Positions 30,618 through 64,000 of a DNA stretch of 64,000 bases are shown here, piece after piece. The notes below the pieces were generated by a model. It saw only the letters and a program-made list of their open reading frames with translations. It ran no database searches and was not told the DNA's origin. The number at the start of each line of letters is the position of its first letter. Positions within the stretch are counted from its first letter, which is position 1. The translations under genes and the position numbers were made by a program. This stretch comes from Eunapius fragilis. Lineage: Eukaryota > Porifera > Demospongiae > Spongillida > Spongillidae. The stretch covers positions 5,769,004 to 5,833,003 of the forward strand of contig OY811980.1 of assembly GCA_963681505.1 (NCBI GenBank), read 5' to 3'.

Positions 30618-31049
30618 ACAGCGAATCCTGCTAGACCTATGGATCATTGATGCTGAACATGCTTCCTTCACCCATCTCATCTTCTCTGCCACTGAACCAG
30701 CCATACCTAAGAGCTAATGAAAACTCGGAAACAGTCTTGCATAGGATGAATCCATTCTCTTCTATAGGAAGCATTGGATGCTCCTTTTTCCTGGCATAGG
30801 TCCATTGCTAGCAAAAGGCATGCAGCATGGCCCTGAGATGAGTAGCGGCAGTATTGTGACTATTGAGCTTCAATTTATACTTCCTTTTTTACTCAAAGAC
30901 AGTATCCTCAGTGCATGTGCCCATCATCTACCTTCATTTTTACATAATCCATTTTCAGTGTGGTCTGAAAAATTGCTTTTCAAGTGGGGAAGAAAGAGCC
31001 CTCCTTAGTGAAGACGTCCTTCGAAAGCTGACTGTATTTGAACTTCATA

Positions 31050-32084
31050 CATAATAGGAGAGATCCCAAAGCCAAGAGCTCTACTTCACAGCCTTCAGGC
31101 TGGGTATCCCATGCAAATAGTTGCTGTAGATATTTTAGGCCCCTTTTCAGCTACACCAGATGTGGTGAGCGATTGTTTTACAAAGTGGGTAGGGGCCTTT
31201 GCAATGCCAAATCAAGAAGCTGCACTGTGGCCCGTAAATTGGTGGATGATGTTTCTGCCAATTTTCCCACCAAAGCAACTGCATGCAGACCAAGGCAGAC
31301 AGTTTGAGGCAGATTTGGTGAAGGAGATTTGTAGCCTGCTCCAAATTAACAAAACTCATTCCACTGCTTATGGTAACGGGTTGGTAGAAAGGTTTAATAG
31401 AACCTTGCTCGACATGTTAGCTACCTTGGTAAAGGATCATCAGGTGGGTTGGGATCAGTGGTCGTCGGGCATGCATAGCATATAACTGAACTGTTTATTC
31501 CTCTACAGGGTATTCTCCTTTTTTTAATGTTTGGTCACCAGGTGCAGCTTCCTGTTGATCTCATGTATGTGCCTACACCTCAAGAGAATGTAACCTTTAG
31601 TTGGTATGTCCAAAACTTAAAGCCCTACAAAGTGGGTGACTTAGCATGGTTACACATACCAGTGGTTAAAAGGGGGGAATATGTAAGTAGTTACTTCATC
31701 CTTGAACTGGCTCTTTTGACGTTATTAGGCACATGAGTTACTGTGTCTATAAGATCAAGGCTCAACAGGGGAGGGCGATCAAGGTAGTTCATTCTGATTG
31801 TCTGAAGATATGCACCATCAAGCCAAAATGGCTAGGTAAAAAAAAAAAACACTCAACTCTCAACCTCAGACCCAGCTCCCAAGTCTTGTCAACAGACTGT
31901 ACCACCACAACAATGTACTGGAGATGAACCTGATCCTTGCAGATAGCGATACTGAAGAGCACCTGGACGAAGTACAGCATGAGCAGGAAGATTCCCCCCC
32001 CCCCCTCCAAGAGCCTCGGTATCCTCATCGTGTGAGTAGACCACCAGACCGCTATATGGACTTTATAGAAGAGGAAGTGGTGTA
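31050..32084 (+). mobile_element. Fossil of a Ty3/gypsy-type LTR retrotransposon (integrase region)
   Basis: The readable parts are an integrase catalytic core segment (VDILGPF, LHADQGRQFEADL, GLVERFNRTLLDMLA), an integrase C-terminal-type segment (KVGDLAWLHIPV) and a short tail region. No gag, protease, reverse transcriptase or LTR pair is recognisable around it. It is a fragment with several breaks, old and inactive. It lies between the two receptor genes. Confidence 0.8.
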
Positions 32085-42200: not shown

Positions 42201-42644
42201 TGTTTCTGCAGTTCCCTCAATGCCACTGAACTTGCAGCTCTCTGCAGTCTCTTCCAGTGTCCTTATGGCCACATGGATACCTCCATCCTCACCCAATGGG
42301 ATTATGACAGGCTACACAGTGTACTGTACAGTATCACAGAACCAGACCTATCCTGAACAGGTGCCGACTGGTGGTTCTACCTATACTGTCTTCAGTGTGA
42401 CCAGTCAGACTTCTGTATACCTGAGTGGCCTTCTTCCATTCACATTCTATCAGTGTTATGTCACTGCTAACACTAGTGTTGGTGAAGGAAATCCCTCAGA
42501 TACCAACACTACACAAACCAATCAGGCAGGTAAGTATCAAATATTTTGTACATTTGCACACATTATTGATATTACAGTTTAAACAGTACTCTCCTAGCTG
42601 TATAGGGCAGATTTTTTCAACAGGTATGGAAAAATAGTGGTGGT

Positions 42645-42677
<33 letters not shown>

Positions 42678-45600
42678 GAGAAACATTTTTTTTTTACATT
42701 CCACTATCCCTCTTTAATACATCACTTTATTTCTTGCAACTTAGGTATATTAAGGCCATACAAGTTTTGTCACTTCCAGCATCTCATTATTTTATGAGAG
42801 GCACTGCATGTACCCATCATTAAGCATTCTAGTCAGAATTATTTATCAATGAAATAGTGCAAGGATCCAGCCTATTAGAAATGAATCAAAGAACAGTGTC
42901 ATTAGTTGTTTTTTTTTTTAATCTCACATACATCCAGAGCATAACATATAAAAATACTTCAGTGCAAAAATGTCAGCACAGGAAATATACTCTAAGTGCT
43001 CTTCAGATGGATGTTCCATTGCCACTATGAACTGACCATAATAGTGTGCACCACCAGTTGTAGTTTGTAGTTACTGGCCTAGTTCACTAGGGAATGATAA
43101 GGGAAAAAGGTTCTAAATGTTCCATTTCCTCTATGTTCCTGTTTTCTAATTCCCTAATTAAACACCCTTAGACCTTATGGCAATTTTCCTTGCAGTTCCA
43201 TCACTACCTCTGAACGTCTCTCTGTCTCCTGTTGCTGGTTCACCATCTGAGCTGTCTGCTAGTTGGTCTGTACCCATACCCAGGAATGGTATCATCACTG
43301 GTTACTCTGTGTACTGCAACACTTCTGCTAATCAAACATATCCAGAGCAAGTGATTGGTTCAAATGTGCCCACCATTAGATCTGTAGTCAATGGGACAAC
43401 ACTGGCTGCTACACTGACTGGTCTCAACCCATTCACACAGTATAGTTGTTATGTGACTGCTAATACATCAGTGGGAGAAGGAAGTCCATCAGTTGTGTTC
43501 ATCATGACTACCATTCAATCAGGTAGGTGTTCAGTTAGTCTTTTATGCTTTTATATTCTGTTGTATAAATCCAAATCTATCATAATACTTATTTGCAGTT
43601 CCATCATCACCTCAAAATTTCTTTCTATCTCCTGTTGCTGGTTCTCCATCCAAGCTGTCTGCTAGTTGGTCTGTACCCATACCTAGGAATGGTATCATCA
43701 CTGGTTACTCTGTGTACTGTAACACTTCTGATAATCAAACATATCCAGAGCAAGTGATTGGACCAAATGTGCCCACCATTAGATCTGTAGTCAATGGGAC
43801 AACACTGGCTGCTACCCTGACTGGACTAAACCCTTACACACAATATACTTGTTATGTGACTGCTAATACATCAGTGGGACAGGGAAGCCCTTCAGCTATA
43901 CTCACAGCTCTAAGTGCTCAGTCAGGTAACTTATATCCTAGCTTTAAATGACCATTCTATTATGTAATATTGTAGCTTACCTGGGCAGAGAATGTTTATA
44001 CCAGGCAGGCCCATATCCACGGAGGGTACTTTGAGTACTGCAGCAACCATCCCCCCCCCCCCCCCCCCTCCCCCAATCTCTCTTGCCAAAACAACCAAAC
44101 ATGGTATCATTTGTGATTTACAAAGGCAAAAATTACAGAATAATTATACTATAATGTTCGGCACAACAATGCTTTTTATTGGACCCACTATTTTTACAAA
44201 GCATGCATCTTTTTTTAAAAATGAATTACAAACTGTTAACCATACCTCTCAATAAACTATTCCATACATGAAATGGAAAATTATATTGTTTTTTACGCCT
44301 TCAGTTCCATCCTCACCTTCAAACTTCACACTATCCCCTGTTCTGGGCTCACCAACTTTGCTCTCTGCTAATTGGTCTGTACCCATACCAAGGAATGGAA
44401 TCATCATTGGATACACTGTGTACTGTAACACTTCTATCAACCAACCATACCCTGAGCAAGTGATTGGACCAAATGTGCCCACCATTAGATCTGTAGTCAA
44501 TGGGACAACACTGGCTGTAGCATTTAACACAGGACTCAGCCCATACACACAGTATAGTTGTCATGTGACTGCCAATACATCTGCAGGAGATGGAAGCCCC
44601 TCTGCATTGGGCCTAGCCAGAACTGTTGATGCTGGTAAGGTTTAGCTCAGAGGTTCTATTTGGTGTGCAAAGATACATAAAACTTAACCATCCGAATTCA
44701 TTTCTAGCCCCGCCTCCTCCATATAACCTCACTGCATACAATCAAAGTTCTACTTCAATCAATCTAAATTGGACACGCCCCCTGTTTCCCAATGGCATCA
44801 TACAGATGTATAAGGTTGTGTACTACCCAGCAGAGAACACTAGCGGAACCACTAACATCACCACACTGACCACATCACTAACTATAAGTGGACTTGCCTT
44901 CTATACCTTGTACACCTTCAGAGTGAGTGTGGTGACCAGGGGAGGGACAAGTGCCTACAGTGATCCTGTTAGTCAGCTCACTTCAGAGGATGGTATGTAT
45001 TGTGAGAGTGTGTACTGCATCAACCTTTGACCTGCATACCATCAAACCATCCTAGCCCCTTCCCCTCCCCTCAATGTTGTGGCCTACAACACCAGCTCTA
45101 CCTCCATCATAGTTACCTGGCAACCACCTCAGTTTGCAAATGGCATCATCAGAGGCTACCTAGTGAACTACACACTTTCAGGAGGAGCTGGAACCACTTC
45201 TGTTGTGAATACAAATGATACCAACAGCACTCTCCTCACTGGCCTGTCTATTTACAAGGAATATATCATATTTGTGAGAGCCATAACAGTAACCCTTGGC
45301 AACAGCAGCTCTAGTGTCATGGCAACCACAAATGAAGATGGTATGTTTTGTGCACAACTCTAACAGATGTTATTTATTAATTATTATGTATACTAATTAT
45401 CATTTAATACTTTAATCACAGTGCCTGGTACTCCTAATGCCCTGAACTCTTCAGTAGTCAATTCATCAGCTCTCTTTGTCTCATGGGCAGAACCAACCAT
45501 TCTCAATGGAATTATTACTAGTTATAACTTGTGCTATTCCATCAGTACTTTTGGTAATTGTACTACAAGTGGAACAAGTCAACATATTCCTTCTGCACCA

Positions 45601-48600
45601 GGGCAGACAACATACAATGCAACCTTGACTAATCTGGTTCCATTTGGCATGTATGCCCTGTGTGTGCAGGCCTCAACTAGGATTGGCTCTGGTGCTATCA
45701 CCACTGCTGTGGTCATCACTACAGACCCAGATACATCTTCAGCTCCCACTAACTTTACTGCCACTGCTGTCAACTCTACATCAATCAAGCTAACGTGGGG
45801 ATATCCACATACTCCCCAAGGTCTCATTGCTGGGTATCAGATAATGCACAATACTTCACTGTCATTCAACCCAGTGAACATTACCATCTCCACCAATGAC
45901 AGCTCACAACAGACCTACACGTTTTGTGGTCTCATTCCATTCACAGTATATTCATTTATAGTAAGAGCATACAGCTATTCTACCAGACTTAGTGCCCAAA
46001 TATACGGAAACTATAACCAGCAACTAGTTATCAGCACATTACAAGATGGTATGTATGGTGATGTTATTTAGTAACACATGTTATTGATATTTGAATGTTT
46101 TTGCAGTTCCCTCAATGCCACTGAACTTCCAGCTCTCTGCAGTCTCTTCAAGTGTCCTTATGGCCAACTGGACTCCTCCATCCTCACCCAATGGGATTAT
46201 GACAGGCTACACAGTGTACTGCACAGTTTCACATAACCAGACCTATCCTGAACAGGTGCCAACTGGTGGTTCTACCTATACTGTCTTCAATGTGACCAGT
46301 CAGACTTCTGTATACCTGCGTGGCCTTCTTCCATTCACATTCTACAAGTGTTATGTCACTGCTAACACTACCGTTGGTGAAGGAAGACCTTCTACTATTG
46401 TGTTATCACAAACCGGTGAAACAGGTATAGATCACAGTATGATATGCTGCATATACATGTTGTGCATACATCATATGCCTAGCCAGAACTGTCCTGGTAA
46501 ATATTGTATTCCACTATGTATCCTGCTCCCACGTATTGATTTCTATTATAAACACTGGTGAAATAATATTAGTATTGATCTTTAACAGTTCCAACGACAC
46601 CTCAGAACTTCTCTGTTACTCCTGCTGCTGGTTCACCATCTCAGCTTTCTGTTAGTTGGTCTGTACCCATTCCTAGGGATGGTATCATCACTGGTTACTC
46701 TGTGTACTGTAACACTTCTGCTAATCAAACATATCCAGAGCAAGTGATTGGACCAAATTTACCCACCATTAGATCTGTAGTCAATGGAACAACACTAGAT
46801 GCTACACTGACTGGACTCAGCCCTTACACACAATATAGTTGTTATGTCACTGCTAATACATCAGTGGGAGAGGGAGGCCCTTCAGTTATATCAACATCCA
46901 AGACAGTTGAAGGAAGTATGTTGTTCATTGCAGCTTAGTACTTTTACTCAATATGTTGCCACTTCTTTTAGCCCCACCTCCTCCATATAACCTCACTGCA
47001 TACAATCAAAGTTCTACTTCAATCACTCTGAACTGGACACGCCCACAGTTTCCCAATGGCATCATACAGATGTATGAGGTTGTGTACTACCCAGCAGAGA
47101 ACACTAATGGAACCACTAACATCACCACACTCACCACATCACTAACTATAAGTGGACTTGCCTTCTATACCTTGTACACCTTTGAAGTGAGTGTGGTGAC
47201 CAGTGGAGGGACAAGTGACTACAGTGATCCTGTTAGTCAGCTCACTTCAGAAGATGGTATGTATTGTGAGAGTGTGAACTGCATCATTCTTTGACTGTGC
47301 ATACCATCAAACCATCCTAGCTCCCTCCCCTCCCCTCAATGTTGTGGCCTACAACACCAGTTCCATCTCCATCATGGTTACCTGGCAACCACCCCAGTTC
47401 CCCAATGGCATCATCAGAGGCTACCAAGTGAACTACACACTTTCAGGAGGAGTTGGAACTACTTCTGTTGTGAATACAAATGTTACCAACAGCACTCTCC
47501 TCACTGGCCTGTCTATTTACACAAAATATATTGTTTTTGTGAAAGCCCTTACAGTAACCCTTGGCAACAGCAGTTCTGCTATCATGGTATCAACAAATGA
47601 AGATGGTATGTTTTATGTACATACTAAATGATGTATACATATTAAATTATCATTTATACCACAGTGCCTGGTACTCCTAATACCTTGAACTCCTCAGTAG
47701 TCAATTCATCAGCTCTCTTTGTCTCATGGGCAGAACCAGCCATTCTTAATGGAATTATAACTAGTTATGATCTGTACTATTCCAGTACCTCTGGTAATTG
47801 TACTACAAGTGGAACAAGTCAACGTATTCCTTCTGTACCAGGGCAGACAACATACAATGCAACCTTGACTAATCTGGTTCCATTTAGCATGTATGCCCTG
47901 TGTGTGCAGGCCTCAACTAGGATTGGCCCTGGTGCTCTCACCACTGCTGTGGTCATCACTACAGATCCAGACATATCCTCACCTCCCACTAACTTTACTG
48001 CCACTCCTGTCAACTCTACATCAATCAAGCTAACATGGGGATATCCACAGACTCCCCAAGGTCTCATTGCTGGGTATCAGATAATGCACAATACTTCACT
48101 GTCATTCAACCCAGTGAACATTACCATCTCCACCAATGATAGCTCACAACAGTCCTACACATTTAGTGGTCTCATTCCATTCACAGTATATTCATTTAAT
48201 GTAAGAGCATACAGCTATTCTACCAGGCTTAGTGCCCAAATATACGGAAACTATAACCAGCAACTGGTTATCAGCACATTGCTAGATGGTATGGTGATGT
48301 TGTTTAGTAACACATGTTATTGATATTTGAATGTTTTTGCAGTTCCCTCAATGCCACTGAACTTCCAGCTCTCTGCAATCTCTTCAAGTGTCCTTATGGC
48401 CAACTGGACACCTCCATCCTCACCCAATGGGATTGTGACAGGCTACACAGTGTACTGCACAGTTTCACAGAACCAGACCTATCCTGAACAGGTGCCAACT
48501 GGTGGTTCTACCTATACTGTCCTCAATGTGACCAGTCAGACTTCTGTATACCTGCGTGGCCTTCTTCCATTCACATTCTACCAGTGTTATGTCACTGCTA

Positions 48601-51600
48601 ACACTACCGTTGGTGAAGGAAGACTTTCTACTACTGTGTTATCACAAACCGGTGAAACAGGTACAGATCACAGTATGATAACGTGCATATACATGTTGTG
48701 CATACATCATGTTCCTGGCCAGAACTATCCTGGTAATTATTGTATGTCACTATGTATCCTTCTCCCATGTATTGATTTCTATTATAAATACTGGTGAAAT
48801 TATATTAATATTGATCTTTAACAGTTCCAACGACACCTCAGAACTTCTCTGTTACTCCTGTTGCTGGTTCACCATCTCAACTTTCTGTTAGTTGGTCTGT
48901 ACCCATACCTAGGAATGGTATCATCACTGGTTACTCTGTGTACTGTAACACTTCTGCCAATCAACCATATTCAGAGCAATTGATTGGACCAAATTTGCCC
49001 ACCATTAGATCTGTAGTGAATGGAATAACACTGGGTGCTACACTGAGTGGTCTCAGCCCATACACACAATATAGTTGTTATGTCACTGCTAATACATCAG
49101 TGGGAGAGGGAGGCCCTTCAGTTATATCAACATCCAGGACAGTTGAAGGAAGTATGTTGTTCATTGCAGCTTAGTACTATTAATCAATATGTTGCCACTT
49201 TTTTCAGCCCCACCTCCTCCATATAACCTCACTGCATACAATCAAAGTTCTACTTCAATCAATCTAATTTGGACACGCCCCCTGTTTCCCAATGGCATCA
49301 TACAGATGTATGAGGTTGTGTACTACCCAGCAGAGAACACTAATGGAACCACTAACATCACCACACTGACCACATCACTAACTATAAGTGGACTTGCCTT
49401 CTATACCTTGTACACCTTCAGAGTGAGTGTGGTGACCAGTGGAGGGACAAGTGTCTACAGTGAACCTGTTAGTCAGCTCACTTCAGAGGATGGTATGTAT
49501 TTTGAGAGTGTGAACAGCATCATTCTTTGACCTGCATATCATCAAACCATCCTAGCCCCCTCCCCTCCCCTCAATGTTGTGGCCTACAACACCAGCTCCA
49601 CCTCCATCATGGTTACCTGGCAACCACCCCAGTTCCCAAATGGCATCATCAGAGGCTACCAAGTGAACTACACACTTTCAGGAGGAGCTGGAACTACTTA
49701 TGTTGTGGATACAAATGATTCCAACAGCACTCTCCTCACTGGCCTGTCTATTTACACAAAATATATTGTTTTTTTGAGAGCCCTTACAGTAACCCTAGGC
49801 AACAGCAGTTCTGCTGTCAGGGTATCAACAAATGAAGATGGTATGTTTTACTCACATACTTAAAATATGTTCATATCATACAATCATTTTAACCACAGTG
49901 CCTGGTACTCCTAATGCCCTGAACTCTTCAGTAGTTAATTCATCAACTCTTATTGCCTCATGGGCAGAACCATCCCCTGTCAATGGAATTATAACTAGTT
50001 ATGACTTGTACTATTCCATCAGTACTTTTGGTAATTGTTCTACAAGTGGAACAAGTCAACGTATTCCTTCTGTACCAGGGCAGACAACATACAATGCAAC
50101 CTTGACTAATCTGGTTCCATTTAGCACTTATGCCCTGTGTGTGCAGGCCTCAACTAGGATTGGCCCTGGTGCTCTCACCACTGCTGTGGTCATCACTACA
50201 GACCCAGGCATATCCTCACCTCCCACTAACTTTACTGCCACTGCTGTCAACTCTACATCAATCAAGCTAACATGGGGATATCCACAGACTCCCCAAGGTC
50301 TCATTGCTGGGTATCAGATAATGCACAATACTTCACTGTCATTCAACCCAGTGAACATTAACATCTCCACCAATGACAGCTCACAACAGATCTACTCATT
50401 TAGTGGTCTCATTCCACTCACAGCATACTTTTTTTCTGTGAGGGCATTTAGCTACCTCACCAGACCCAGTGTATTAACCTCATTAATGTATGGAAATTAC
50501 TCTCAAGAGCTATTTATTAAGACGTTGTGGGATGGTAAGTTGGAACACTTCAATTGGCAATCACACACAACTAATGAAATTGGCTCATATATGCACATGC
50601 ACACCCGCACATGCACACACACACAAACGCATACACACACACACCATAACATGCGGGGCATTTTTTAACAGTCACAGCATCACCACAGCACTTTGGACTT
50701 ACTGAAATCTCTTCAAGTGTCTTTATGGCCAACTGGACACCTCCATCCTCACCCAGTGGGATTGTTATAGGCTACACAGTGTACTGTGCAGTATCACAGA
50801 ACCAGACCTATCCTGATCAGGTACCAACTGGTGCTTCTGCCTATACTGTCTTCAATGTGACCAGTCAGACTTCTGTATACCTGAGTGGCCTTCTTCCATT
50901 TACGTTCTACCAGTGTTATGTCACTGCTAACACTACTGTTGGTGAAGGTAGTCCTTCCATCACTGGCATATCTCAGACCAGTCAAGCAGGTGTGTGCATT
51001 TAAATATATCTATAGTTCATGTCTTCATTTATACCAAACACATTTTCTCCAATTGAATAATTTGTTTCATAATATGATATAATAGGCATTATTTCTTGTA
51101 CCAACCTGTACTTCATTAAGGCCTTAATTATGCCTAACTTCTATCGTACTATACTTGAAACGTGTCTTAGCTTCCATTCTAATGATGTAACAGAAATTGA
51201 CGAGTTTGATTGCTCTTCAGCTCCATCCTCACCTCTGAATTTCACATTGTCCACTGTTCCTGGGTCTCCAACTGCTCTCTGTGCTGCATGGTCTGTACCC
51301 ATACCAAGGAATGGTATCATCACTGGATACACTGTGTACTGTAACACTTCTATCAACCAACCATACCCTGAGCAAGTGATAGGTACAAATATTGCCACCA
51401 TCAGATCTGCAGTGAATGGGACAACACTGGTGGTAACATTCAACACAGGACTCAACCCACACACACAGTATAGTTGTTACGTGACTGCTAATACATCTTA
51501 TGGCCAAAGCAGACCTTCGGCTCTGGTCACTGCTTTAACTGCTCAATCAGGTAATTATGCATTATCCAAAAGGGGTAATTCTATGGAATATGAATGTGAT

Positions 51601-52422
51601 CAAATTCATTATATGCTACATTGCAAACTTTTTTCAGTTCCTTCATCACCTCAGCACCTTTCTCTGTCTCCTATTTTGGACCATCCAACTGAACTCTCAG
51701 CCAATTGGTCTGTACCCAAACCAAGGAATGGTATCATCACTGGATACACTGTGTACTGTAACACATCTATCAAACAACCATACCCTGAGCAAGTGATTGG
51801 TTCGAATATTGCCACCATTAAATCTGTAGTGAATGGGACAACACTGGCTGTAACATTCAACACAGGACTCAGCCCATACACACAGTATAGTTGTTATGTG
51901 ACTGCAAATTCATCGACTGGAGAGGGAAACCATTCAGATGTTGTCACTGAGAGAACTGGAGAAGCAAGTGAGAAACATTTAATCATCAGAGAATTTGTTT
52001 TGGATTTATAATATGGGAAAGTGTCCAGCAAAATCACCCTTCTGAATAGTTTGTCAAGTTTTCAAATTATTCTGTGAACTCCAAAGAGCTTCTGTATGCA
52101 TCCTAAATTGGACTATCCATCATAAATGTATTAGGCACTGAATTTATAACTAGCCATTCATTTCAATGTGAGCGTTACTTTCTTTTGCTTGTCCTGGAAA
52201 ATTTGATAAAGTATCAAAATTGCGATTTTGCTGGACACTTCCATGTATGCTTTGAAATACTTGGAAGTCAAATTAGGTTTTTTGTGTGGTCAACTGTTCA
52301 ATCTCTCAAAGAAAACTTGCAGATGAATTATTAACGTACCATGTTGAACTATGTAATTATGTCAGTAAGATATTAACCCTTACTAAATAATCTCACTCAA
52401 GGTACACTTATTACAATCTGAT
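33014..52422 (+). CDS. FN3-array adhesion GPCR, N-terminal part (39 FN3 domains), cut by a gap
   Basis: Two leader exons are followed by 33 exons encoding 39 FN3 domains. All FN3 exons are phase 1-1, with one or two domains each. The last exon before the gap is 51638-51967; the intron after it runs into the run of N. Standing alone the model has no membrane anchor or stop. Joined to the minus-strand exons 57968-53519 (right contig flipped), phases match and the total is 15663 bases, an exact multiple of three: about 5220 residues. This ectodomain would be exposed at the cell surface and is dense in N-glycosylation motifs. Its job is unknown; long FN3 arrays usually act as adhesive or spacer stalks. 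Confidence 0.8.
33205..34558 (+). other. First large intron of the FN3 receptor gene
   Basis: 1.35 kb, AT-rich and non-coding. It has a weak foldback at 33284-33402 and a TG-rich patch near 34090-34155. I see no gene inside. Confidence 0.5.
33284..33402. repeat. Weak foldback element
   Basis: The terminal TAGCAAAGGCAA is mirrored by TTGCCTTTGCTA. The inner parts are only partly complementary (TCAATGAAT and ATTCATTGA). Confidence 0.5.
34559..39277 (+). CDS. FN3 unit 1 (long type, 8 domains)
   Basis: The exons are 34559-35170 (two FN3 domains in one exon, type D), 36628-36945 (A), 37168-37494 and 37610-37936 (B), 38253-38582 (B'), 38645-38929 (C) and 38993-39277 (E). FN3 hallmarks recur: W in the B strand (FVSWTPP, MANWTPP, LNWTRP, VTWQPP), NG-I-GY turns and a Tyr-rich F strand (YQCYVTANTS). 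This unit is the most diverged copy and has been stretched by insertions in its first intron. Confidence 0.85.
35257..35514. repeat. MITE relative of the GTGTCCAGCAAAATC family
   Basis: The left end has CTGCCCAGCAAAATCACC and the right end, on the opposite strand, GTGTCTAGCAAAGTCATCC. Both resemble the ends of the copy at 52021-52238. The interior has diverged. Confidence 0.5.
35941..36200 (+). pseudogene. Decayed FN3 exon within the intron
   Basis: The sequence follows the second FN3 domain of exon 34559-35170: CACCTGATATCCAGATCTCG, CTCCTCCAACAGCTTTTAGT, ATTATACCATCTGTGGCCTG and GTGTACAACATTTCTGTGAG align with that exon. Internal deletions and in-frame stops (for example TAG after TCACTTTAACA near 36030) destroy the domain. 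It looks like a leftover from an earlier duplication of a type D exon. Confidence 0.7.
36262..36528. repeat. Long hairpin element (267 bp, about 120 bp arms)
   Basis: CATGAAAATGTTGAATCCTG at the left end is mirrored at the right end. The arms continue almost without mismatch through TACAAACCATTATAATATTC and TGATGAACTGTATAATATAC to a short central loop rich in GCATGC. It is non-coding; MITE or foldback class. Very high arm identity suggests a young insertion. Confidence 0.8.
39341..41464 (+). CDS. FN3 unit 2 (short type, 6 domains)
   Basis: The exons are 39341-39967 (D, two FN3 domains), 40028-40345 (A), 40449-40775 (B), 40832-41116 (C) and 41180-41464 (E). The two extra B-type exons of unit 1 are absent. 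Unit length to the next D exon is 2190 bases. The C-E intron (63 bases) is nearly identical to that of units 3-5. Confidence 0.88.
41531..45340 (+). CDS. FN3 unit 3 (long type, 8 domains)
   Basis: The exons are 41531-42157 (D), 42212-42529 (A), 43196-43522 and 43599-43925 (B), 44305-44634 (B'), 44708-44992 (C) and 45056-45340 (E). The order matches unit 1 exactly, including a poly-C run in the B-B' intron (44051 onwards, compare 38020 in unit 1). Units 1 and 3 therefore descend from one long ancestral unit. Confidence 0.88.
42530..43195 (+). other. Intron with a long G-run in unit 3
   Basis: The A-B intron of unit 3 is 666 bases and carries about 29 G at 42645-42673 and a nearby T-run. The 3' 110 bases match the corresponding intron of unit 1 (CTATGTTCCTGTTTTCTAAT). 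The middle part is unit-specific and matches nothing I recognise. Confidence 0.6.
45422..47605 (+). CDS. FN3 unit 4 (short type, 6 domains)
   Basis: The exons are 45422-46048 (D), 46107-46424 (A), 46589-46915 (B), 46972-47256 (C) and 47321-47605 (E). The D exon has a substitution of Tyr by Cys (SYNLCYSIS for SYDLYYSIS). The part from 46543 on is repeated in reverse at the right end of the window. Confidence 0.88.
47665..49840 (+). CDS. FN3 unit 5 (short type, 6 domains)
   Basis: The exons are 47665-48288 (D, one codon shorter than its relatives), 48343-48660 (A), 48825-49151 (B), 49208-49492 (C) and 49556-49840 (E). The last exon differs from its inverted copy at 49708 (G here; the mirrored base gives Asn instead of Asp). 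Confidence 0.88.
49899..51967 (+). CDS. FN3 unit 6 (partial, 5 domains)
   Basis: The exons are 49899-50534 (D, with a longer and diverged second domain end), 50672-50989 (A, diverged start), 51221-51550 and 51638-51967 (B'-type). The C and E exons are missing. After 51967 the gene continues in an intron that runs into the assembly gap. A CA-rich microsatellite lies in the intron at about 50600-50645. Confidence 0.85.
52021..52238. repeat. MITE, GTGTCCAGCAAAATC family
   Basis: The element starts with GTGTCCAGCAAAATCACC and ends with the inverted GATTTTGCTGGACAC. It is 218 bp and non-coding. An internal block resembles, in opposite orientation, 2993-3118 in the RPTP intron. The mirrored copy lies at about 58305-58522. 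Confidence 0.75.
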
Positions 52423-52622
52423 NNNNNNNNNNNNNNNNNNNNNNNNNNNNNNNNNNNNNNNNNNNNNNNNNNNNNNNNNNNNNNNNNNNNNNNNNNNNNN
52501 NNNNNNNNNNNNNNNNNNNNNNNNNNNNNNNNNNNNNNNNNNNNNNNNNNNNNNNNNNNNNNNNNNNNNNNNNNNNNNNNNNNNNNNNNNNNNNNNNNNN
52601 NNNNNNNNNNNNNNNNNNNNNN
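52423..52622. other. Assembly gap (200 N)
   Basis: Exactly 200 N: a round number typical of a placeholder of unknown true size. The left contig stops in an intron of the FN3 receptor; the right contig begins beyond the 3' end of a minus-strand gene. Confidence 0.95.
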
Positions 52623-53518
52623 CACAGCTTGGAAGAATGAGTATTCGACACCCATTTAAAGTACATTCAAAACCATTTGAATGTTTGGGAGGAGTCTCAT
52701 CTCTGGTCACGTGTGCCCCATCATAGGTAAAAAAAAAAACGTGGGCTACGTACGGTCGGATACGAATATACGCAACTGACCTATGGGAGATTGGCATGAT
52801 TGTGCTTAGAATGGCCCGTTCAACACTGGCTTATCTTCACATCTTGAAGTTGATAGTGGCTGGGATCAAGATGGCTCAAGGGCTTGAATCGACTCGCTAT
52901 CGGAGTACGAATGAATCAATCGACAGGCCACGCCGATTTCAATTTGGCTACCCATTTGACCCGCACGATTGTATGTACTATATATGTCTGTGGCACCAAT
53001 AACAAAAATGTTTCAGTGAGGCCCGATACGAAAAGTGGGTGGTGGTGGGAAGGGGGGGGGGGGGTGCTGTCCACTTGAGGCCATACGCTGCAAGCCCGAA
53101 AGTAGGAGTTTTTAATACGGGCCTTTGTTAATATGGCACGCTGTATTTTAGCAAATACACTGCACGTTATCGTTGATAATTAATGGTAGGACCAGGTAGG
53201 TCGAGGGGGACCCGGGCCATGTGATTGAAAAGTTGCGCACCGAATGCATTCGTAGCGGTAAGAATATAAACATTCATTCATATAACATTCAAATGGATTC
53301 TTTGCCATTCGTATTCTTCCAACCCGTGCACCATTTTGCATAGTCATGTCATCACCGCACAGAATAAAGCACTACATGCGACAGGAATTTGAAGAACTAC
53401 ATAAGGTATATCAAGCACACATACTCATGTACCATGCATATCACACAGAACTAGCAAACAGAGTAAAATTTTAACGACGGGCAGCAGTTTTTCAGTCATA
53501 GCTAATAGCTCAGCGACC
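52623..53518. other. Sequence downstream of the minus-strand GPCR, no gene seen
   Basis: This 0.9 kb stretch lies beyond the stop codon of the minus-strand gene. It has a G-run at about 53051-53062 and short unsupported open frames. An ATTAAA variant polyadenylation hexamer on the minus strand is at 53111-53116, a weak candidate for the gene's 3' end. Confidence 0.5.
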
Positions 53519-54759
53519 TCACAAATTCAGCTCAACATCTTCGTCGAATGTCACTGTCACCACTTCCTCCATGTGACGCTTGTGACGTGATAAAGTGCGG
53601 GTGAGCATCGCGGTGGGTCCGAGAGCTTTTATTTCTTCAGTAAAGACAGTTTCATCGGGATCAGGTTTGCCTAAAATTGTTCCGCGAGTCATCAGACTCA
53701 GCTTAGTTGATGCTCGTGTTGAAGATAGAGACCATATATGTTTCTTGTCACGAGGCCTTAGAAGCTGCAACCACGAGAGACGAACTTCCTTCTTCAGGGC
53801 GCAGAAGAAAATGAATATTAAGAAACCTTGGAATGAATTTATCAATGTGAACACAATCTGGAAAGCCTGGTCAGCTTTCACGATGGTAAGTGCCCCAAAG
53901 ATCCAGGTAAGGCCAAATAGGACGAATACACTAATGATGTTTATCATCAGTTGAATGGAACCAAAATTCTTGTTGTGGTCGCTTGATCGCTTCAGCGCGT
54001 GCTTAATTAGTACCACAATCGCGATAACGAATATGACAGCATTGAAGGCAAGCATGAGAAGAATTGGTCCCAAGAATGCAGCAAAGAATACTGTGACATT
54101 ACTAATGAAGCAGCTATTGAGGTGGGGAAGATATCAGCGGAATGACAAGTGCACATGAAACCACGCGGTTAGCTTACTATCCATACGGTGCGTCACGTTT
54201 GACAAGCAGATTTCGATCCATGGCTAGTGGAATAATTACGGGAACCAATGGTGTCACTGAAAGGTTGAAAATATAATATACTGTAACCCGAAATCATCTA
54301 CAGCATACCCCAACAGACAAGAGATAGAATGATGATGTATCGTGTGGTGATCTGGAAAAACACAAGGACAAGCTTCTGGAACATCAACAAGGCCTCCGCC
54401 CCCATCCACATCACGGCCACCAGGGTGAAGTAGTGGACCAACACTGACACAGTCACGCAGCCTCCATAGTTCTCTGTCCTGTCAATTCCAATCACAAACA
54501 CCAACAGCATACCAATGAGGGCACAGCACAGCTGAACATGGTACTTGGAGACATCCTTCTCTCTCTGCTTCCTAAGTTTTGCATTGTGAACCACGTAGGT
54601 AACTATTAATTAAATATTAACTTACTTTATAAGTGTTAGGCTCATAATTGTTGCCACCAGTCCAAGAAGAGACAGTGACACTCCAACAAAGGTGATGGCT
54701 TCCAATGCTCTTTGAACAGGTGTACTTGGAGGTTCAGGTCTGATTCTGCTTGATATGTC
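53519..54759 (-). CDS. Seven-transmembrane domain and cytoplasmic tail
   Basis: TM1 lies in 54759-54626 (FVGVSLSLLGLVATIMSL). TM2-TM4 lie in 54571-54309 (LCCALIGMLLVFVIGID; VLVHYFTLVAVMWMGAEALL; YIIILSLVCWG) and continue in 54256-54178. TM5-TM7 lie in 54113-53519 (LGPILLMLAFNAVIFVIAIV; FVLFGLTWIFGALTIV; FTLINSFQGFLIFIFFCAL). VMWMGAEAL in TM3 and GLTWIFGAL in TM6 are adhesion-class signatures. The tail is about 75 residues, Ser/Thr-rich, and ends DEDVELNL without an obvious PDZ motif. Confidence 0.9.
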
Positions 54760-57700
54760 CTGCAATGATCAAAGTAAGAGTACTGGGTATGACCACAGAG
54801 AAACCTTACCACTAAGATGGCAAAGTTTGTCAGGTGTGAGCATTGACACTGTATTTGGCTATTTGAAGTGTTGCTCATGTTGGTGATGCATCCCTCTGTA
54901 GTCCAGTTACCTCTCCCTCCTGATGGTAGATGTAGTATATGCATTGTTTATAAGTAATTGTTCCTTTTCATACCATAGGACTTGTCCCTTCCTCCACAAT
55001 TCCCTCCCAACCTGATCATTAATACCCCCCTCCCTCAACTAAACCTCATTCCTACCCCTCCCTCACTGTACCTGCTGCACTAAAGTTCCAACTGACACAG
55101 TCATATTTTGTGTAATTCTGCATTCAGTAATGGTCAATCAAACTTTGCTCAAAATTTTTGTAATGGTCTTACTTTGCTAGGAATAGTGAACATGAATTGA
55201 GCTGGGGTCGAAAGGTTTCCAAATGACGTATCACTTCCTGCTACAATTGTAGCACCAAGGACGAGAGATGCTATCATGGTGGTATTTGAAGAATTAGCTA
55301 GTGGGAAAAAAGATGCTGTGCGATAGATAGAGAAAACAAGTCCAATACGACTGTTATTTAAGGATTTGAACAATGATGGTGGCAGGAAAACTGATGCAGT
55401 GGATGCAGGAGTATTGGAGACACTGGAAGTGTTTCCTGTTTCTTCCAGGCTACTATTTCCAACATCTTGTGGGGAAAAGCTAAAGCTGGTTCCCCCAATG
55501 GTAAGGTTAGCTAGAGGAATCTGGTTGGCAGGATTACTGAATGACCACAACTTTTGCATTTCATTACAGGCTAACCTTTTGAGCAACAAGTGTTGTCTGG
55601 TTTTTTATAGAAACAAAAGATGTGAAATTTTCTTGCTCAACAAGACTTGAAGCAATGTTTTCAAATGACTTAACAATTCTGGAAATACGATTTGTTTTAA
55701 AATGGTAAGATGTCTTAATAAATTGTAATTTACATTGAACCACTTCTTTCCAGCACCATTGGTGGCCAAGATTGGATACTGCTTAGGACTGTAACAACGT
55801 TGGTGATGGTCTGATGAGATATAAATGTAAGTTCAAAATGCACTGGCTTGCTTATCACGTACTTCAGGCTGCACGAGAACAGATGGTGATGATATGTTGG
55901 CAATTTGAGTGATGACATTTGTCACAACAGCCAGGTTTGAACTACTTTGGTCCACCACCTCCGTAGCTTGAGACACTACAGTCTGTAACTGTGATGTCAC
56001 ATTAACCACATTTTCTGAGCTGATGGTTTGCTGTTGAGCATATATAACTGTAAGTACTGTACAATGATTTTAAAAAACCTCACATTTTGTATAACTGATC
56101 CGAGGTCCTTGAACTGCTTGGTCACCACTGTGGGGCATTTTGAAGCATCCTCTGTCCAGATCTGTCCATCACAGTACCGTGTAACATTTTGACCATCTAT
56201 CCCATACTGACACATTTGAGATACAGTCTGACCATCCACTGCCTCTGGCCAGCTGTATGTCCCTCCTCTGTTGACCACGTCCAGAGCACAACTGCAAAAT
56301 CTGTTTGCTGTAAAGGATTAACCACAGTAGAATCATATGATTGATTGATAATACAATGCTAAAATAAACCTGATATAACTTGTGCACTATTTCCTAGAAC
56401 AATTGCTCTGCTGGTGATGTGTTGAGATTTAAATGACTGTACAAACATGGCTATCTCAGTGGATGTCAACTTCAGAAAAATCAAAATGTTGCATTCAATC
56501 CTATATGATCCAGTAGTGACATCATTTGGACACCTAATATCAGTGTACATAGAGTTAAAACCACATCAACATATTGATTTTACCTTTGCACAGAACTGCA
56601 CAGTGCCCCCAAAGGAAATACTCCATTTATGCCACTCCCCCGAAGACTGACATTTGCTACCATTGCTATCTGAAAATGGAGAACATTATTTTATGATTCT
56701 GTCAAATATAAGGTTACCTCATCTTGAAACTGTGAGAGAGCAAGATCATTTTGATTATTATCAACGTTGGTTTGTGTGGATATCCTGAGATATACAACAA
56801 GTGGATCTGTGGTCGGTGCTGTATTGGAATAATACAATAAATAAATGTCATAAGTAATGTTACTAGAGATAGCTAGTTACCATGAAGGGTTGTTGCATTT
56901 ATAGAGGTGTTAGGACCACACCCACTAATGGTAAAAGCACACACAATGACTGAGTACTGGGTATAATTGAAAAGGTTTTGAATTAGCAGTGTGGTATTTG
57001 AAACCCTAGAAGACCTTGCTGGAAAGCCATTTGATGGTGTGTAGGTCACCTATACAAATTAGTAATTGACACAACATTTTAAATGTCACTTCTCCTAAGC
57101 CTCACCATGTATCCTAATACAATTCCATTACTACATGATGGAGGACTCCATGACACTAGCAGACTGCTGTAGCTGAGGTCACTGACACTGATATTGAGAG
57201 GGGAAGATGGCGGAGCCTGTAGGGTGGTGAATGATTGAGGCATGGAGAATTCTCCCTCTCCTTCAGTTGTGTTTACCAACACAACAAATGAGTAAGAAGT
57301 GAATGGCACTGTGGGAACATTGGACATCAACATTAAAACATGACAGCAGAGTCATGTTAGACCTCCTACCAAGTGACATGTCTTTCAGTGCTTTGTATCG
57401 CTGGCTTCCAGGTACTGTAATGTAGTAACTGTGATTGCGACCATTTAAGCAGTCTTCACCAACAGAGCTGGGATCATTAACAGTTACATTAACAAAGTAT
57501 GAAATGACTGAATAGTTCTTTTCCAGAGGACAGCTCCAAGTGAGATTGGCAGAGGTAGCAGTGAGGGCACTTGATGGAACCTCTGGAGGTTGTGGGACCT
57601 CAGCATATGCTGTGAGGTCATGTAAGTTATACAGGTTTACCACTTTGTACAGAGACAGGACTCACTGTTAAGGGATGAATCAACAACTGGTCCACTAAAT

Positions 57701-57968
57701 GGTCCAGGACCTTTGCTTGTGTATGCTCTCACTGAAATGCTGTACTGCACACACTCCAAAAGCATATTCAGTACTAGATGATTTGGAGCACCGCTGGTGT
57801 TCCTATAGCTGACACTGGTCTGTCCATTGTCCAAGGGCCATGTATACCTCACTTCATAGGCTATGAGGATACCATTCCTTGATATATTAGGTATCTGTTC
57901 CCAACTGACATTGACTGAAGTTGGTGCAAATGTAATGGCAGACACTTCGATGGGAGCAGCACTAGGAC
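53519..57968 (-). CDS. Adhesion GPCR C-terminal part: 3 FN3, HRM-like, GAIN/GPS, 7TM
   Basis: Eighteen minus-strand exons, given 5' to 3': 57968-57666, 57609-57370, 57308-57106, 57049-56881, 56818-56718, 56669-56584, 56533-56370, 56307-56084, 56030-55863, 55810-55734, 55678-55576, 55520-55173, 55117-55072, 54919-54810, 54759-54626, 54571-54309, 54256-54178 and 54113-53519 (stop TGA at 53521-53519). Phases are consistent throughout. The first exon begins in phase 1, the same phase in which the plus-strand FN3 array stops before the gap. This is the signalling half of a family-B-like adhesion receptor: the GAIN domain cuts itself at the GPS and the seven helices couple to G proteins. It most likely belongs to the 33014-52422 gene, with the contig placed backwards. 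Confidence 0.85.
54810..56030 (-). CDS. GAIN domain and GPS autoproteolysis site
   Basis: Exons from 56030 to 54810 encode a helical N-terminal part (VVNVTSQLQTVVSQATEVVD) and a beta-rich part (RIGLVFSIYRTASFFPLANS). The GPS follows: CVSWNFS, NWTTEGC, CQCSHLTNFAIL. The cleavage triad His-Leu|Thr is intact, with the scissile bond between codons ending at 54831 and starting at 54830. After the cut the residues TNFAILV would form the start of the tethered agonist. The glycine-tryptophan and cysteine pattern is complete, so self-cleavage is expected. Confidence 0.85.
56084..56307 (-). CDS. HRM-like (hormone receptor motif) domain
   Basis: Spaced cysteines and signature residues fit the HRM fold: CSCALDVV, TYSWPEAVDGQTVSQMCQYG, NVTRYCDGQIWTEDASKC. 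HRM domains stand directly before GAIN in many adhesion GPCRs, the position seen here. No ligand can be inferred. Confidence 0.7.
56370..56818 (-). CDS. Linker exons between FN3 and HRM
   Basis: Exons 56818-56718, 56669-56584 and 56533-56370 encode a region with no confident domain (LVVYLRISTQTNVDNNQND; SGINGVFPLGALC; CPNDVTTGSYRIEC; EIAMFVQSFKSQHI). Alternation of hydrophobic residues and a hydrophobic helix hint at a small alpha/beta module such as a SEA-like domain, but this is only a guess. The donor of the last exon (GTTTAT at 56369) is weak and was chosen because it alone keeps phase with the HRM exon. Confidence 0.55.
56881..57968 (-). CDS. Last three FN3 domains of the adhesion GPCR
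   Basis: FN3-40 is a single exon (57968-57666: SVNVSWEQIPNISRNGILIA...YSISVRAYTSKGPG). FN3-41 spans 57609-57370 and the start of 57308-57106 (ANLTWSCPLEKNYSVISYF...YSFVVLVNTTEGEG). FN3-42 continues in 57308-57106 and ends in 57049-56881 (LLVSWSPPSCSNGIVLGYM...YSVIVCAFTISGCG). Unlike the array upstream, these are split by internal introns (one in phase 0) and are well diverged from each other, so they are the old, non-duplicating base of the stalk. Confidence 0.85.
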
Positions 57969-58304
57969 CTGAAAGAAAAATCTGTTGTTAGTTGCAATGA
58001 CAGGATTTGAAAGAGTCAAATATAAAATGGTAATCATTAACAAGACTATTATCTACCAAAATCAGTCGAGTTGTGCATCTCACCACAATGGATTTTAGTA
58101 GCATATACGAAGGTCTAAGACATCAGATTGTAATAAGTGTACCTTGAGTGAGATTATTTAGTAAGGGTTAATATCTTACTGACATAATTACATAGTTCAA
58201 CATGGTACGTTAATAATTCATCTGCAAGTTTTCTTTGAGAGATTGAACAGTTGACCACACAAAAAACTAATTTGACTTCCAAGTATTTCAAAGCATACAT
58301 GGAA

Positions 58305-58522
58305 GTGTCCAGCAAAATCGCAATTTTGATACTTTATCAAATTTTCCAGGACAAGCAAAAGAAAGTAACGCTCACATTGAAATGAATGGCTAGTTATAAA
58401 TTCAGTGCCTAATACATTTATGATGGATAGTCCAATTTAGGATGCATACAGAAGCTCTTTGGAGTTCACAGAATAATTTGAAAACTTGACAAACTATTCA
58501 GAAGGGTGATTTTGCTGGACAC
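58305..58522. repeat. Mirrored copy of the GTGTCCAGCAAAATC MITE
   Basis: Reverse complement of 52021-52238. It lies in the intron between the last mirrored FN3 exon and the FN3 exon at 57968, so that intron is about 0.6 kb with the MITE inside. Confidence 0.8.
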
Positions 58523-58575
58523 TTTCCCATATTATAAATCCAAAACAAATTCTCTGATGATTAAATGTTTCTCAC

Positions 58576-61500
58576 TTGCTTCTCCAGTTCTCTCAGTGAC
58601 AACATCTGAATGGTTTCCCTCTCCAGTCGATGAATTTGCAGTCACATAACAACTATACTGTGTGTATGGGCTGAGTCCTGTGTTGAATGTTACAGCCAGT
58701 GTTGTCCCATTCACTACAGATTTAATGGTGGCAATATTCGAACCAATCACTTGCTCAGGGTATGGTTGTTTGATAGATGTGTTACAGTACACAGTGTATC
58801 CAGTGATGATACCATTCCTTGGTTTGGGTACAGACCAATTGGCTGAGAGTTCAGTTGGATGGTCCAAAATAGGAGACAGAGAAAGGTGCTGAGGTGATGA
58901 AGGAACTGAAAAAAGTTTGCAATGTAGCATATAATGAATTTGATCACATTCATATTCCATAGAATTACCCCTTTTGGATAATGCATAATTACCTGATTGA
59001 GCAGTTAAAGCAGTGACCAGAGCCGAAGGTCTGCTTTGGCCATAAGATGTATTAGCAGTCACGTAACAACTATACTGTGTGTGTGGGTTGAGTCCTGTGT
59101 TGAATGTTACCACCAGTGTTGTCCCATTCACTGCAGATCTGATGGTGGCAATATTTGTACCTATCACTTGCTCAGGGTATGGTTGGTTGATAGAAGTGTT
59201 ACAGTACACAGTGTATCCAGTGATGATACCATTCCTTGGTATGGGTACAGACCATGCAGCACAGAGAGCAGTTGGAGACCCAGGAACAGTGGACAATGTG
59301 AAATTCAGAGGTGAGGATGGAGCTGAAGAGCAATCAAACTCGTCAATTTCTGTTACATCATTAGAATGGAAGCTAAGACACGTTTCAAGTATAGTACGAT
59401 AGAAGTTAGGCATAATTAAGGCCTTAATGAAGTACAGGTTGGTACAAGAAATAATGCCTATTATATCATATTATGAAACAAATTATTCAATTGGAGAAAA
59501 TGTGTTTGGTATAAATGAAGACATGAACTATAGATATATTTAAATGCACACACCTGCTTGACTGGTCTGAGATATGCCAGTGATGGAAGGACTACCTTCA
59601 CCAACAGTAGTGTTAGCAGTGACATAACACTGGTAGAACGTAAATGGAAGAAGGCCACTCAGGTATACAGAAGTCTGACTGGTCACATTGAAGACAGTAT
59701 AGGCAGAAGCACCAGTTGGTACCTGATCAGGATAGGTCTGGTTCTGTGATACTGCACAGTACACTGTGTAGCCTATAACAATCCCACTGGGTGAGGATGG
59801 AGGTGTCCAGTTGGCCATAAAGACACTTGAAGAGATTTCAGTAAGTCCAAAGTGCTGTGGTGATGCTGTGACTGTTAAAAAATGCCCCGCATGTTATGGT
59901 GTGTGTGTGTATGCGTTTGTGTGTGTGTGCATGTGCGGGTGTGCATGTGCATATATGAGCCAATTTCATTAGTTGTGTGTGATTGCCAATTGAAGTGTTC
60001 CAACTTACCATCCCACAACGTCTTAATAAATAGCTCTTGAGAGTAATTTCCATACATTAATGAGGTTAATACACTGGGTCTGGTGAGGTAGCTAAATGCC
60101 CTCACAGAAAAAAAGTATGCTGTGAGTGGAATGAGACCACTAAATGAGTAGATCTGTTGTGAGCTGTCATTGGTGGAGATGTTAATGTTCACTGGGTTGA
60201 ATGACAGTGAAGTATTGTGCATTATCTGATACCCAGCAATGAGACCTTGGGGAGTCTGTGGATATCCCCATGTTAGCTTGATTGATGTAGAGTTGACAGC
60301 AGTGGCAGTAAAGTTAGTGGGAGGTGAGGATATGCCTGGGTCTGTAGTGATGACCACAGCAGTGGTGAGAGCACCAGGGCCAATCCTAGTTGAGGCCTGC
60401 ACACACAGGGCATAAGTGCTAAATGGAACCAGATTAGTCAAGGTTGCATTGTATGTTGTCTGCCCTGGTACAGAAGGAATACGTTGACTTGTTCCACTTG
60501 TAGAACAATTACCAAAAGTACTGATGGAATAGTACAAGTCATAACTAGTTATAATTCCATTGACAGGGGATGGTTCTGCCCATGAGGCAATAAGAGTTGA
60601 TGAATTAACTACTGAAGAGTTCAGGGCATTAGGAGTACCAGGCACTGTGGTTAAAATGATTGTATGATATGAACATATTTTAAGTATGTGAGTAAAACAT
60701 ACCATCTTCATTTGTTGATACCCTGACAGCAGAACTGCTGTTGCCTAGGGTTACTGTAAGGGCTCTCAAAAAAACAATATATTTTGTGTAAATAGACAGG
60801 CCAGTGAGGAGAGTGCTGTTGGAATCATTTGTATTCACAACATAAGTAGTTCCAGCTCCTCCTGAAAGTGTGTAGTTCACTTGGTAGCCTCTGATGATGC
60901 CATTTGGGAACTGGGGTGGTTGCCAGGTAACCATGATGGAGGTGGAGCTGGTGTTGTAGGCCACAACATTGAGGGGAGGGGAGGGGGCTAGGATGGTTTG
61001 ATGATATGCAGGTCAAAGAATGATGCTGTTCACACTCTCAAAATACATACCATCCTCTGAAGTGAGCTGACTAACAGGTTCACTGTAGACACTTGTCCCT
61101 CCACTGGTCACCACACTCACTCTGAAGGTGTACAAGGTATAGAAGGCAAGTCCACTTATAGTTAGTGATGTGGTCAGTGTGGTGATGTTAGTGGTTCCAT
61201 TAGTGTTCTCTGCTGGGTAGTACACAACCTCATACATCTGTATGATGCCATTGGGAAACAGGGGGCGTGTCCAAATTAGATTGATTGAAGTAGAACTTTG
61301 ATTGTATGCAGTGAGGTTATATGGAGGAGGTGGGGCTGAAAAAAGTGGCAACATATTGATTAATAGTACTAAGCTGCAATGAACAACATACTTCCTTCAA
61401 CTGTCCTGGATGTTGATATAACTGAAGGGCCTCCCTCTCCCACTGATGTATTAGCAGTGACATAACAACTATATTGTGTGTATGGGCTGAGACCACTCAG

Positions 61501-63954
61501 TGTAGCACCCAGTGTTATTCCATTCACTACAGATCTAATGGTGGGCAAATTTGGTCCAATCAATTGCTCTGAATATGGTTGATTGGCAGAAGTGTTACAG
61601 TACACAGAGTAACCAGTGATGATACCATTCCTAGGTATGGGTACAGACCAACTAACAGAAAGTTGAGATGGTGAACCAGCAACAGGAGTAACAGAGAAGT
61701 TCTGAGGTGTCGTTGGAACTGTTAAAGATCAATATTAATATAATTTCACCAGTATTTATAATAGAAATCAATACATGGGAGAAGGATACATAGTGACATA
61801 CAATAATTACCAGGATAGTTCTGGCCAGGAACATGATGTATGCACAACATGTATATGCACGTTATCATACTGTGATCTGTACCTGTTTCACCGGTTTGTG
61901 ATAACACAGTAGTAGAAAGTCTTCCTTCACCAACGGTAGTGTTAGCAGTGACATAACACTGGTAGAATGTGAATGGAAGAAGGCCACGCAGGTATACAGA
62001 AGTCTGACTGGTCACATTGAGGACAGTATAGGTAGAACCACCAGTTGGCACCTGTTCAGGATAGGTCTGGTTCTGTGAAACTGTGCAGTACACTGTGTAG
62101 CCTGTCACAATCCCATTGGGTGAGGATGGAGGTGTCCAGTTGGCCATAAGGACACTTGAAGAGATTGCAGAGAGCTGGAAGTTCAGTGGCATTGAGGGAA
62201 CTGCAAAAACATTCAAATATCAATAACATGTGTTACTAAACAACATCACCATACCATCTAGCAATGTGCTGATAACCAGTTGCTGGTTATAGTTTCCGTA
62301 TATTTGGGCACTAAGCCTGGTAGAATAGCTGTATGCTCTTACATTAAATGAATATACTGTGAATGGAATGAGACCACTAAATGTGTAGGACTGTTGTGAG
62401 CTATCATTGGTGGAGATGGTAATGTTCACTGGGTTGAATGACAGTGAAGTATTGTGCATTATCTGATACCCAGCAATGAGACCTTGGGGAGTCTGTGGAT
62501 ATCCCCATGTTAGCTTGATTGATGTAGAGTTGACAGGAGTGGCAGTAAAGTTAGTGGGAGGTGAGGATATGTCTGGATCTGTAGTGATGACCACAGCAGT
62601 GGTGAGAGCACCAGGGCCAATCCTAGTTGAGGCCTGCACACACAGGGCATACATGCTAAATGGAACCAGATTAGTCAAGGTTGCATTGTATGTTGTCTGC
62701 CCTGGTACAGAAGGAATACGTTGACTTGTTCCACTTGTAGTACAATTACCAGAGGTACTGGAATAGTACAGATCATAACTAGTTATAATTCCATTAAGAA
62801 TGGCTGGTTCTGCCCATGAGACAAAGAGAGCTGATGAATTGACTACTGAGGAGTTCAAGGTATTAGGAGTACCAGGCACTGTGGTATAAATGATAATTTA
62901 ATATGTATACATCATTTAGTATGTACATAAAACATACCATCTTCATTTGTTGATACCATGATAGCAGAACTGCTGTTGCCAAGGGTTACTGTAAGGGCTT
63001 TCACAAAAACAATATATTTTGTGTAAATAGACAGGCCAGTGAGGAGAGTGCTGTTGGTAACATTTGTATTCACAACAGAAGTAGTTCCAACTCCTCCTGA
63101 AAGTGTGTAGTTCACTTGGTAGCCTCTGATGATGCCATTGGGGAACTGGGGTGGTTGCCAGGTAACCATGATGGAGATGGAACTGGTGTTGTAGGCCACA
63201 ACATTGAGGGGAGGGGAGGGAGCTAGGATGGTTTGATGGTATGCACAGTCAAAGAATGATGCAGTTCACACTCTCACAATACATACCATCTTCTGAAGTG
63301 AGCTGACTAACAGGATCACTGTAGTCACTTGTCCCTCCACTGGTCACCACACTCACTTCAAAGGTGTACAAGGTATAGAAGGCAAGTCCACTTATAGTTA
63401 GTGATGTGGTGAGTGTGGTGATGTTAGTGGTTCCATTAGTGTTCTCTGCTGGGTAGTACACAACCTCATACATCTGTATGATGCCATTGGGAAACTGTGG
63501 GCGTGTCCAGTTCAGAGTGATTGAAGTAGAACTTTGATTGTATGCAGTGAGGTTATATGGAGGAGGTGGGGCTAAAAGAAGTGGCAACATATTGAGTAAA
63601 AGTACTAAGCTGCAATGAACAACATACTTCCTTCAACTGTCTTGGATGTTGATATAACTGAAGGGCCTCCCTCTCCCACTGATGTATTAGCAGTGACATA
63701 ACAACTATATTGTGTGTAAGGGCTGAGTCCAGTCAGTGTAGCATCTAGTGTTGTTCCATTGACTACAGATCTAATGGTGGGTAAATTTGGTCCAATCACT
63801 TGCTCTGGATATGTTTGATTAGCAGAAGTGTTACAGTACACAGAGTAACCAGTGATGATACCATCCCTAGGAATGGGTACAGACCAACTAACAGAAAGCT
63901 GAGATGGTGAACCAGCAGCAGGAGTAACAGAGAAGTTCTGAGGTGTCGTTGGAA
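58576..63954 (-). CDS. Mirrored FN3 exons (copy of units 4-6)
   Basis: Twelve minus-strand exons, 5' to 3': 63954-63628, 63571-63287, 63222-62938, 62878-62255, 62200-61883, 61718-61392, 61335-61051, 60987-60703, 60644-60009, 59871-59554, 59322-58993 and 58905-58576. They encode the same B, C, E, D, A, B, C, E, D, A, B', B' series of FN3 domains as 46589-51967. They lead in frame and in phase 1 into the exon at 57968-57666. This is either the same locus seen twice through an inverted contig, or a second gene copy. Confidence 0.88.
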
Positions 63955-64000
63955 CTGTTAAAGATCAATACTAATATTATTTCACCAGTGTTTATAATAG

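Follow-up and report, generated by a model that had tools for sequence, protein, structure and literature searches.

Does this region of the Eunapius fragilis genome hold two near-identical receptor gene copies in inverted orientation around an assembly gap, or a single receptor gene, part of which was assembled twice? We analysed a window of 64,000 nucleotides of contig OY811980.1 (assembly GCA_963681505.1, positions 5,769,004 to 5,833,003 of the forward strand), in which the sequences ending at 52422 and starting at 52623 are called the left and the right contig, respectively (Table 1). We consider it very probable that the second answer is the right one, namely that an overlapping contig was mis-oriented during assembly and one receptor split.

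Table 1. Elements of the inverted repeat, the assembly gap and the receptor gene (positions in the window)
Feature	Position	Strand	Remarks
FN3 exon array, left contig	34559-51967	+	36 model exons, 39 FN3 profile matches
Left copy of the repeat	46543-52422	+	Flush with left contig end; self-comparison and alignment
Intron truncated by contig end, 455 bases	51968-52422	+	Exon ends at 51967, then GT
Assembly gap, 200 N	52423-52622	.	Only N run in the window
Single-copy part of right contig, 5499 bp	52623-58121	-	Receptor gene 3' part on its minus strand
Secretin/adhesion-type 7TM pieces, C-terminus, TGA stop	53519-54609	-	PF00002, E 1.1e-09 and 2.3e-14
GPS motif exon	54810-54919	-	PF01825, E 1e-11
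Last FN3 domains, about three	56818-57968	-	Pfam fn3 above cut-off in two of the three frames scanned, third below
Same intron, complete	57969-58575	-	454 shared bases, then 153 to the acceptor
Right copy of the repeat	58122-64000	-	Reverse complement of left copy; cut at window edge

The comparison of the window with itself aligned the left copy to the minus strand of the right copy over 5880 columns with 99.966% identity, one mismatch and one gap opening. In the alignment, the sole substitution is a G at 49708 facing an A (minus strand) at 60835, and the sole indel concerns the GG at 52275-52276, one G of which is absent near 58267/58268. A second, separate repeat finder recovered the same two arms, broken into two at the indel. 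All three procedures therefore agree with the preliminary description, which had reported an inverted, near-identical stretch of 5.9 kb around a 200 N gap. The two arms that it had delimited hold as a match, but 46543 does not hold as a boundary: the match reaches base 64000, the last of the window, so that 46543 only mirrors the window edge and the length of the repeat is at least 5879 bases. The size of 200 N is the usual gap size of one scaffolding tool and was given no weight as evidence.

The inner edge of the left copy coincides with the final base of the left contig. At this end the overlap is flush; its opposite end lies beyond the window, and no rearrangement breakpoint is visible at either repeat end within the window, the left one being the contig end and the right one the window edge. 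No 25-mer of the remaining part of the right contig recurs in the left contig, whichever strand is considered, and blastn at E 1e-3 gave no other match to this part in the rest of the window. The arrangement is that of two contigs overlapping at their ends, one of them turned round. Both contigs would cover one locus, with an overlap of at least 5.9 kb; they would have been left unmerged, with the right contig placed reversed behind the gap. The genome would then hold the repeated stretch once, the scaffold order being presumably right otherwise, and the two copies may come from a single haplotype, the difference being an error in the consensus, or from two different haplotypes in a tract of low variation.

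The near-identical copies lie on one scaffold with a gap between them, which is the configuration expected of a false duplication. Ko et al. (2022, PMC9516828) name a gap separating the two members of a same-scaffold pair as one of the primary traits of false duplications. The homotype and heterotype false duplications treated there share with the present case a near-identical pair on the same scaffold, an intervening gap and false partial genes; they differ in that the second copy is here reversed, and in that our case is judged from sequence alone. Mis-oriented contigs are counted among the scaffolding errors in the YaHS paper (PMC9848053), with for instance 21 of them in one simulated human test. 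Such Hi-C scaffolding 'inversions' likewise consist of a contig placed backwards in a scaffold, whereas the contig considered here also overlaps its neighbour. As an illustration, and with no claim that they concern the present species, two sponge genome notes (PMC12648040, PMC12398682) mention 37 and 84 misjoins or missing joins corrected, and 13 and 28 haplotypic duplications removed.

An artificial palindrome could also arise from a fold-back chimera in the reads or in the contig, through a missed adapter or template switch. Artefacts of this kind produce near-identical inverted copies, as found here, but they are expected to leave a mirror at the centre, whereas the present arms are parted by a gap and by 5499 bp of unique sequence lying on one side only. 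Disfavoured by this one-sided spacer, a fold-back origin seems very improbable.

A more serious competitor is a real and very young inverted duplication, in which the FN3 array, or the whole gene, would have been copied in reverse nearby. The sequence as given reads in this way, and the locus is rich in duplicated cassettes. Within the FN3 array of the left contig, the self-comparison detected repeated multi-exon cassettes with typical offsets of about 2.1 to 3.9 kb, introns included, and 85-93% identity over more than 1.6 kb among the matches listed; the array looks like the product of a recent tandem duplication of FN3 exons within one receptor gene. The inverted copies differ at just 2 of 5880 columns, whereas two cassettes inside the right arm are 93.3% identical over 1678 columns (6.7% difference), so that an inverted duplication, if real, must be much more recent than those that produced the cassettes of the array. 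It would leave two convergent copies, with the 3' end of the left copy and the inner breakpoint both hidden in the gap. The coincidence of the repeat edge with the contig end, in place of a visible breakpoint, speaks against a duplication. Repeat arms can break contigs, and contigs may end at a true repeat edge; the flush end alone is hence no proof of an artefact. Nevertheless, where a repeat is assembled independently on its two sides, one would usually expect it to be bridged.

The same data raise three difficulties for a mis-oriented overlap. First, an overlap of 5.9 kb with 99.97% identity is one that assemblers would normally be expected to merge; some complication must have prevented this, perhaps haplotype branching or a confusion between cassettes. 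Second, the break falls in an intron for which no other high-identity copy was found within the window, the only matches being a partial one of 79% at 2984-3117 and its own inverted ends, and the break is consequently not explained by a local repeat. Third, base 49708 is private to the left copy, which carries a G where the right copy and four other plus-strand places matching the surrounding pattern carry an A. The copies are thus not strictly one sequence, as a duplication would have it; the G/A difference fits a young duplicate just as well as it fits an error in the consensus or the presence of two haplotypes. A mis-oriented overlap remains favoured over a duplication by the flush contig end with no visible breakpoint and a gap between the copies, by the near-identity that includes the introns, by the right-contig remainder being single-copy in the window, and by the fact that nothing recognisable follows on from the left gene when the layout is read as given (see below).

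Concerning the intron cut by the gap, its segment 52016-52240 has inverted ends (45 columns, 82% identity), and part of it has the 79% identical relative at 2984-3117 cited above. This stretch and its relative are possibly copies of a small mobile element.

The domains encoded on both sides of the gap were identified with Pfam. On the left contig, PF00041 was matched with E 1.9e-27 (34522-35175) and E 1.2e-20 (51073-52008). On the right contig, the FN3 frames matched the same family with E 2.3e-09 (exon at 57968), 6.7e-09 and 0.013, the last value being below the cut-off. Next come an HRM match that is weak and below cut-off (E 0.01) and then the GPS and 7TM elements of Table 1. One frame lying between these elements, 55152-55604, gave no match. 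Among PDB structures, adhesion GPCR L2 matched the C-terminal piece best (E 4.2e-17). Once flipped and merged, the two contigs would form one plus-strand gene in which a long FN3 array is followed by a GPS motif and a 7TM domain; in this merged gene the GPS motif precedes a 7tm_2 domain, as in adhesion GPCRs. In the given layout, the FN3 array and the GPS and 7TM parts lie on opposite strands, as two truncated genes.

We also considered that the left gene might continue on the plus strand of the right contig. Nine frames were scanned for this continuation, seven of them being the listed right-contig plus-strand frames of at least 80 amino acids. None of these seven matched Pfam above the cut-off, and the whole set of nine gave one sub-threshold match (E 0.056). 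In these frames nothing recognisable therefore continues the left gene in the given orientation, and such a continuation is not supported. Relatives were searched in two collections, neither of which is meant for animal DNA: the 7TM piece had 38 pattern matches and no relative in genome_contigs, and the FN3 piece no relative in viral_contigs. Owing to the nature of these collections, both searches say little.

The intron that crosses the break was examined on both contigs. On the left, as the preliminary description had proposed, the sequence halts at the gap within an intron, which starts with GT after the exon end and runs to the contig end. On the right, beyond the shared part, the intron extends to an AG followed by the FN3 exon at 57968 (minus strand), with phase 1 on both sides; the continuation of about 150 bases to an in-phase exon claimed earlier is accordingly found. 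In the merged layout the disputed intron measures 608 bp, is of the GT-AG type in phase 1 and resembles the introns of the array. The in-phase splice had also been put forward as an argument for a backwards contig, and here we depart from the earlier interpretation. The whole intron (58575 to 57968, minus strand) lies inside the right contig, so that the splice phase cannot separate an artefact from a real inverted duplication, which would show an identical splice; we rejected it as proof of mis-orientation. The proposal that the right contig is the unmerged, backwards continuation of the left one is still supported, partly on other grounds than those originally given, and the split into two truncated genes on opposite strands is observed in the given layout, with FN3 on the left plus strand and FN3, GPS and 7TM on the right minus strand.

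A splice model was computed on the flipped layout, with the overlap counted once. An array of about 42 FN3 domains leads there in phase to the GPS motif and the adhesion-type 7TM domain. The 5169 residues of the model are encoded by 54 exons, of which the left contig contributes 36 and the right contig 18. Phase 1 is the starting phase of every left-contig exon (imposed for the first one) and of the first three on the right. The model begins inside the first FN3 exon and skips part of the 7TM region, and no signal peptide or 5' exon was identified in it. This was the second of two models: its start was forced into the first FN3 exon (with the phase and one carry base assumed), its end was forced at the stop of the C-terminal frame, and frames of the right contig itself made up part of the training set for its codon scores. 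The first model, in which neither start nor end was imposed, yielded the same junction and phase-1 FN3 exons; it stopped within the 7TM region, its 5' part was implausible and two of its exons had zero length. Generic splice-site weights were used in both. Both scripts forbid in-frame stops, so the merged model is open by construction, which is no test of it. The FN3 profile gave 43 matches on the merged model, two of them overlapping, hence about 42 domains (39 on the left, about three on the right). Since this profile was built from 27 of the model's left-contig exons, 27 of the 39 left matches are profile seeds and the FN3 number is a count, not an independent test.

Adhesion GPCRs have been described in the sponge Amphimedon, where a GPS is present in 28 of 40 receptors (PMC4302439). 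Its architecture-figure legend includes fn3, Ig, GPS and HRM among the domains. The array of about 42 FN3 is long, the comparison being made with this legend and not with array lengths.

If the contig is indeed mis-oriented, annotation of the scaffold presents one adhesion-GPCR-like gene as two truncated ones, each on a different strand, FN3 domains and one gene copy are falsely added, and counts of receptor expansion in Eunapius fragilis are inflated. Biologically this would be ordinary and of little novelty; its practical value is a warning for annotation, and a cheap screen would be to check scaffold gaps for contig ends that overlap in reverse orientation. Should the duplication be real instead, which we judge improbable, an extremely recent duplication of a giant FN3-array receptor gene would mean that receptor diversity is actively being generated at a locus already made up of repeated cassettes.

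Other elements were observed in the window. Upstream of the FN3 array, at 31042-31482, a frame resembling an integrase core matches PF00665 at E 1.4e-05, short of the curated cut-off, and is probably a decayed retroelement. Inside the receptor gene, positions 36259-36531 form a hairpin with two arms of 133 bases, 96% complementary, and a loop of 7 bases, which looks like a small non-autonomous transposon. Finally, the plus strand of 10640-26585 carries tandem Ig-domain frames in cassettes up to 93% identical, together with one frame whose FN3 match lies at the Pfam cut-off and three with partial matches to tyrosine-phosphatase domains; this region looks like a putative receptor-type tyrosine phosphatase with an expanded Ig array.
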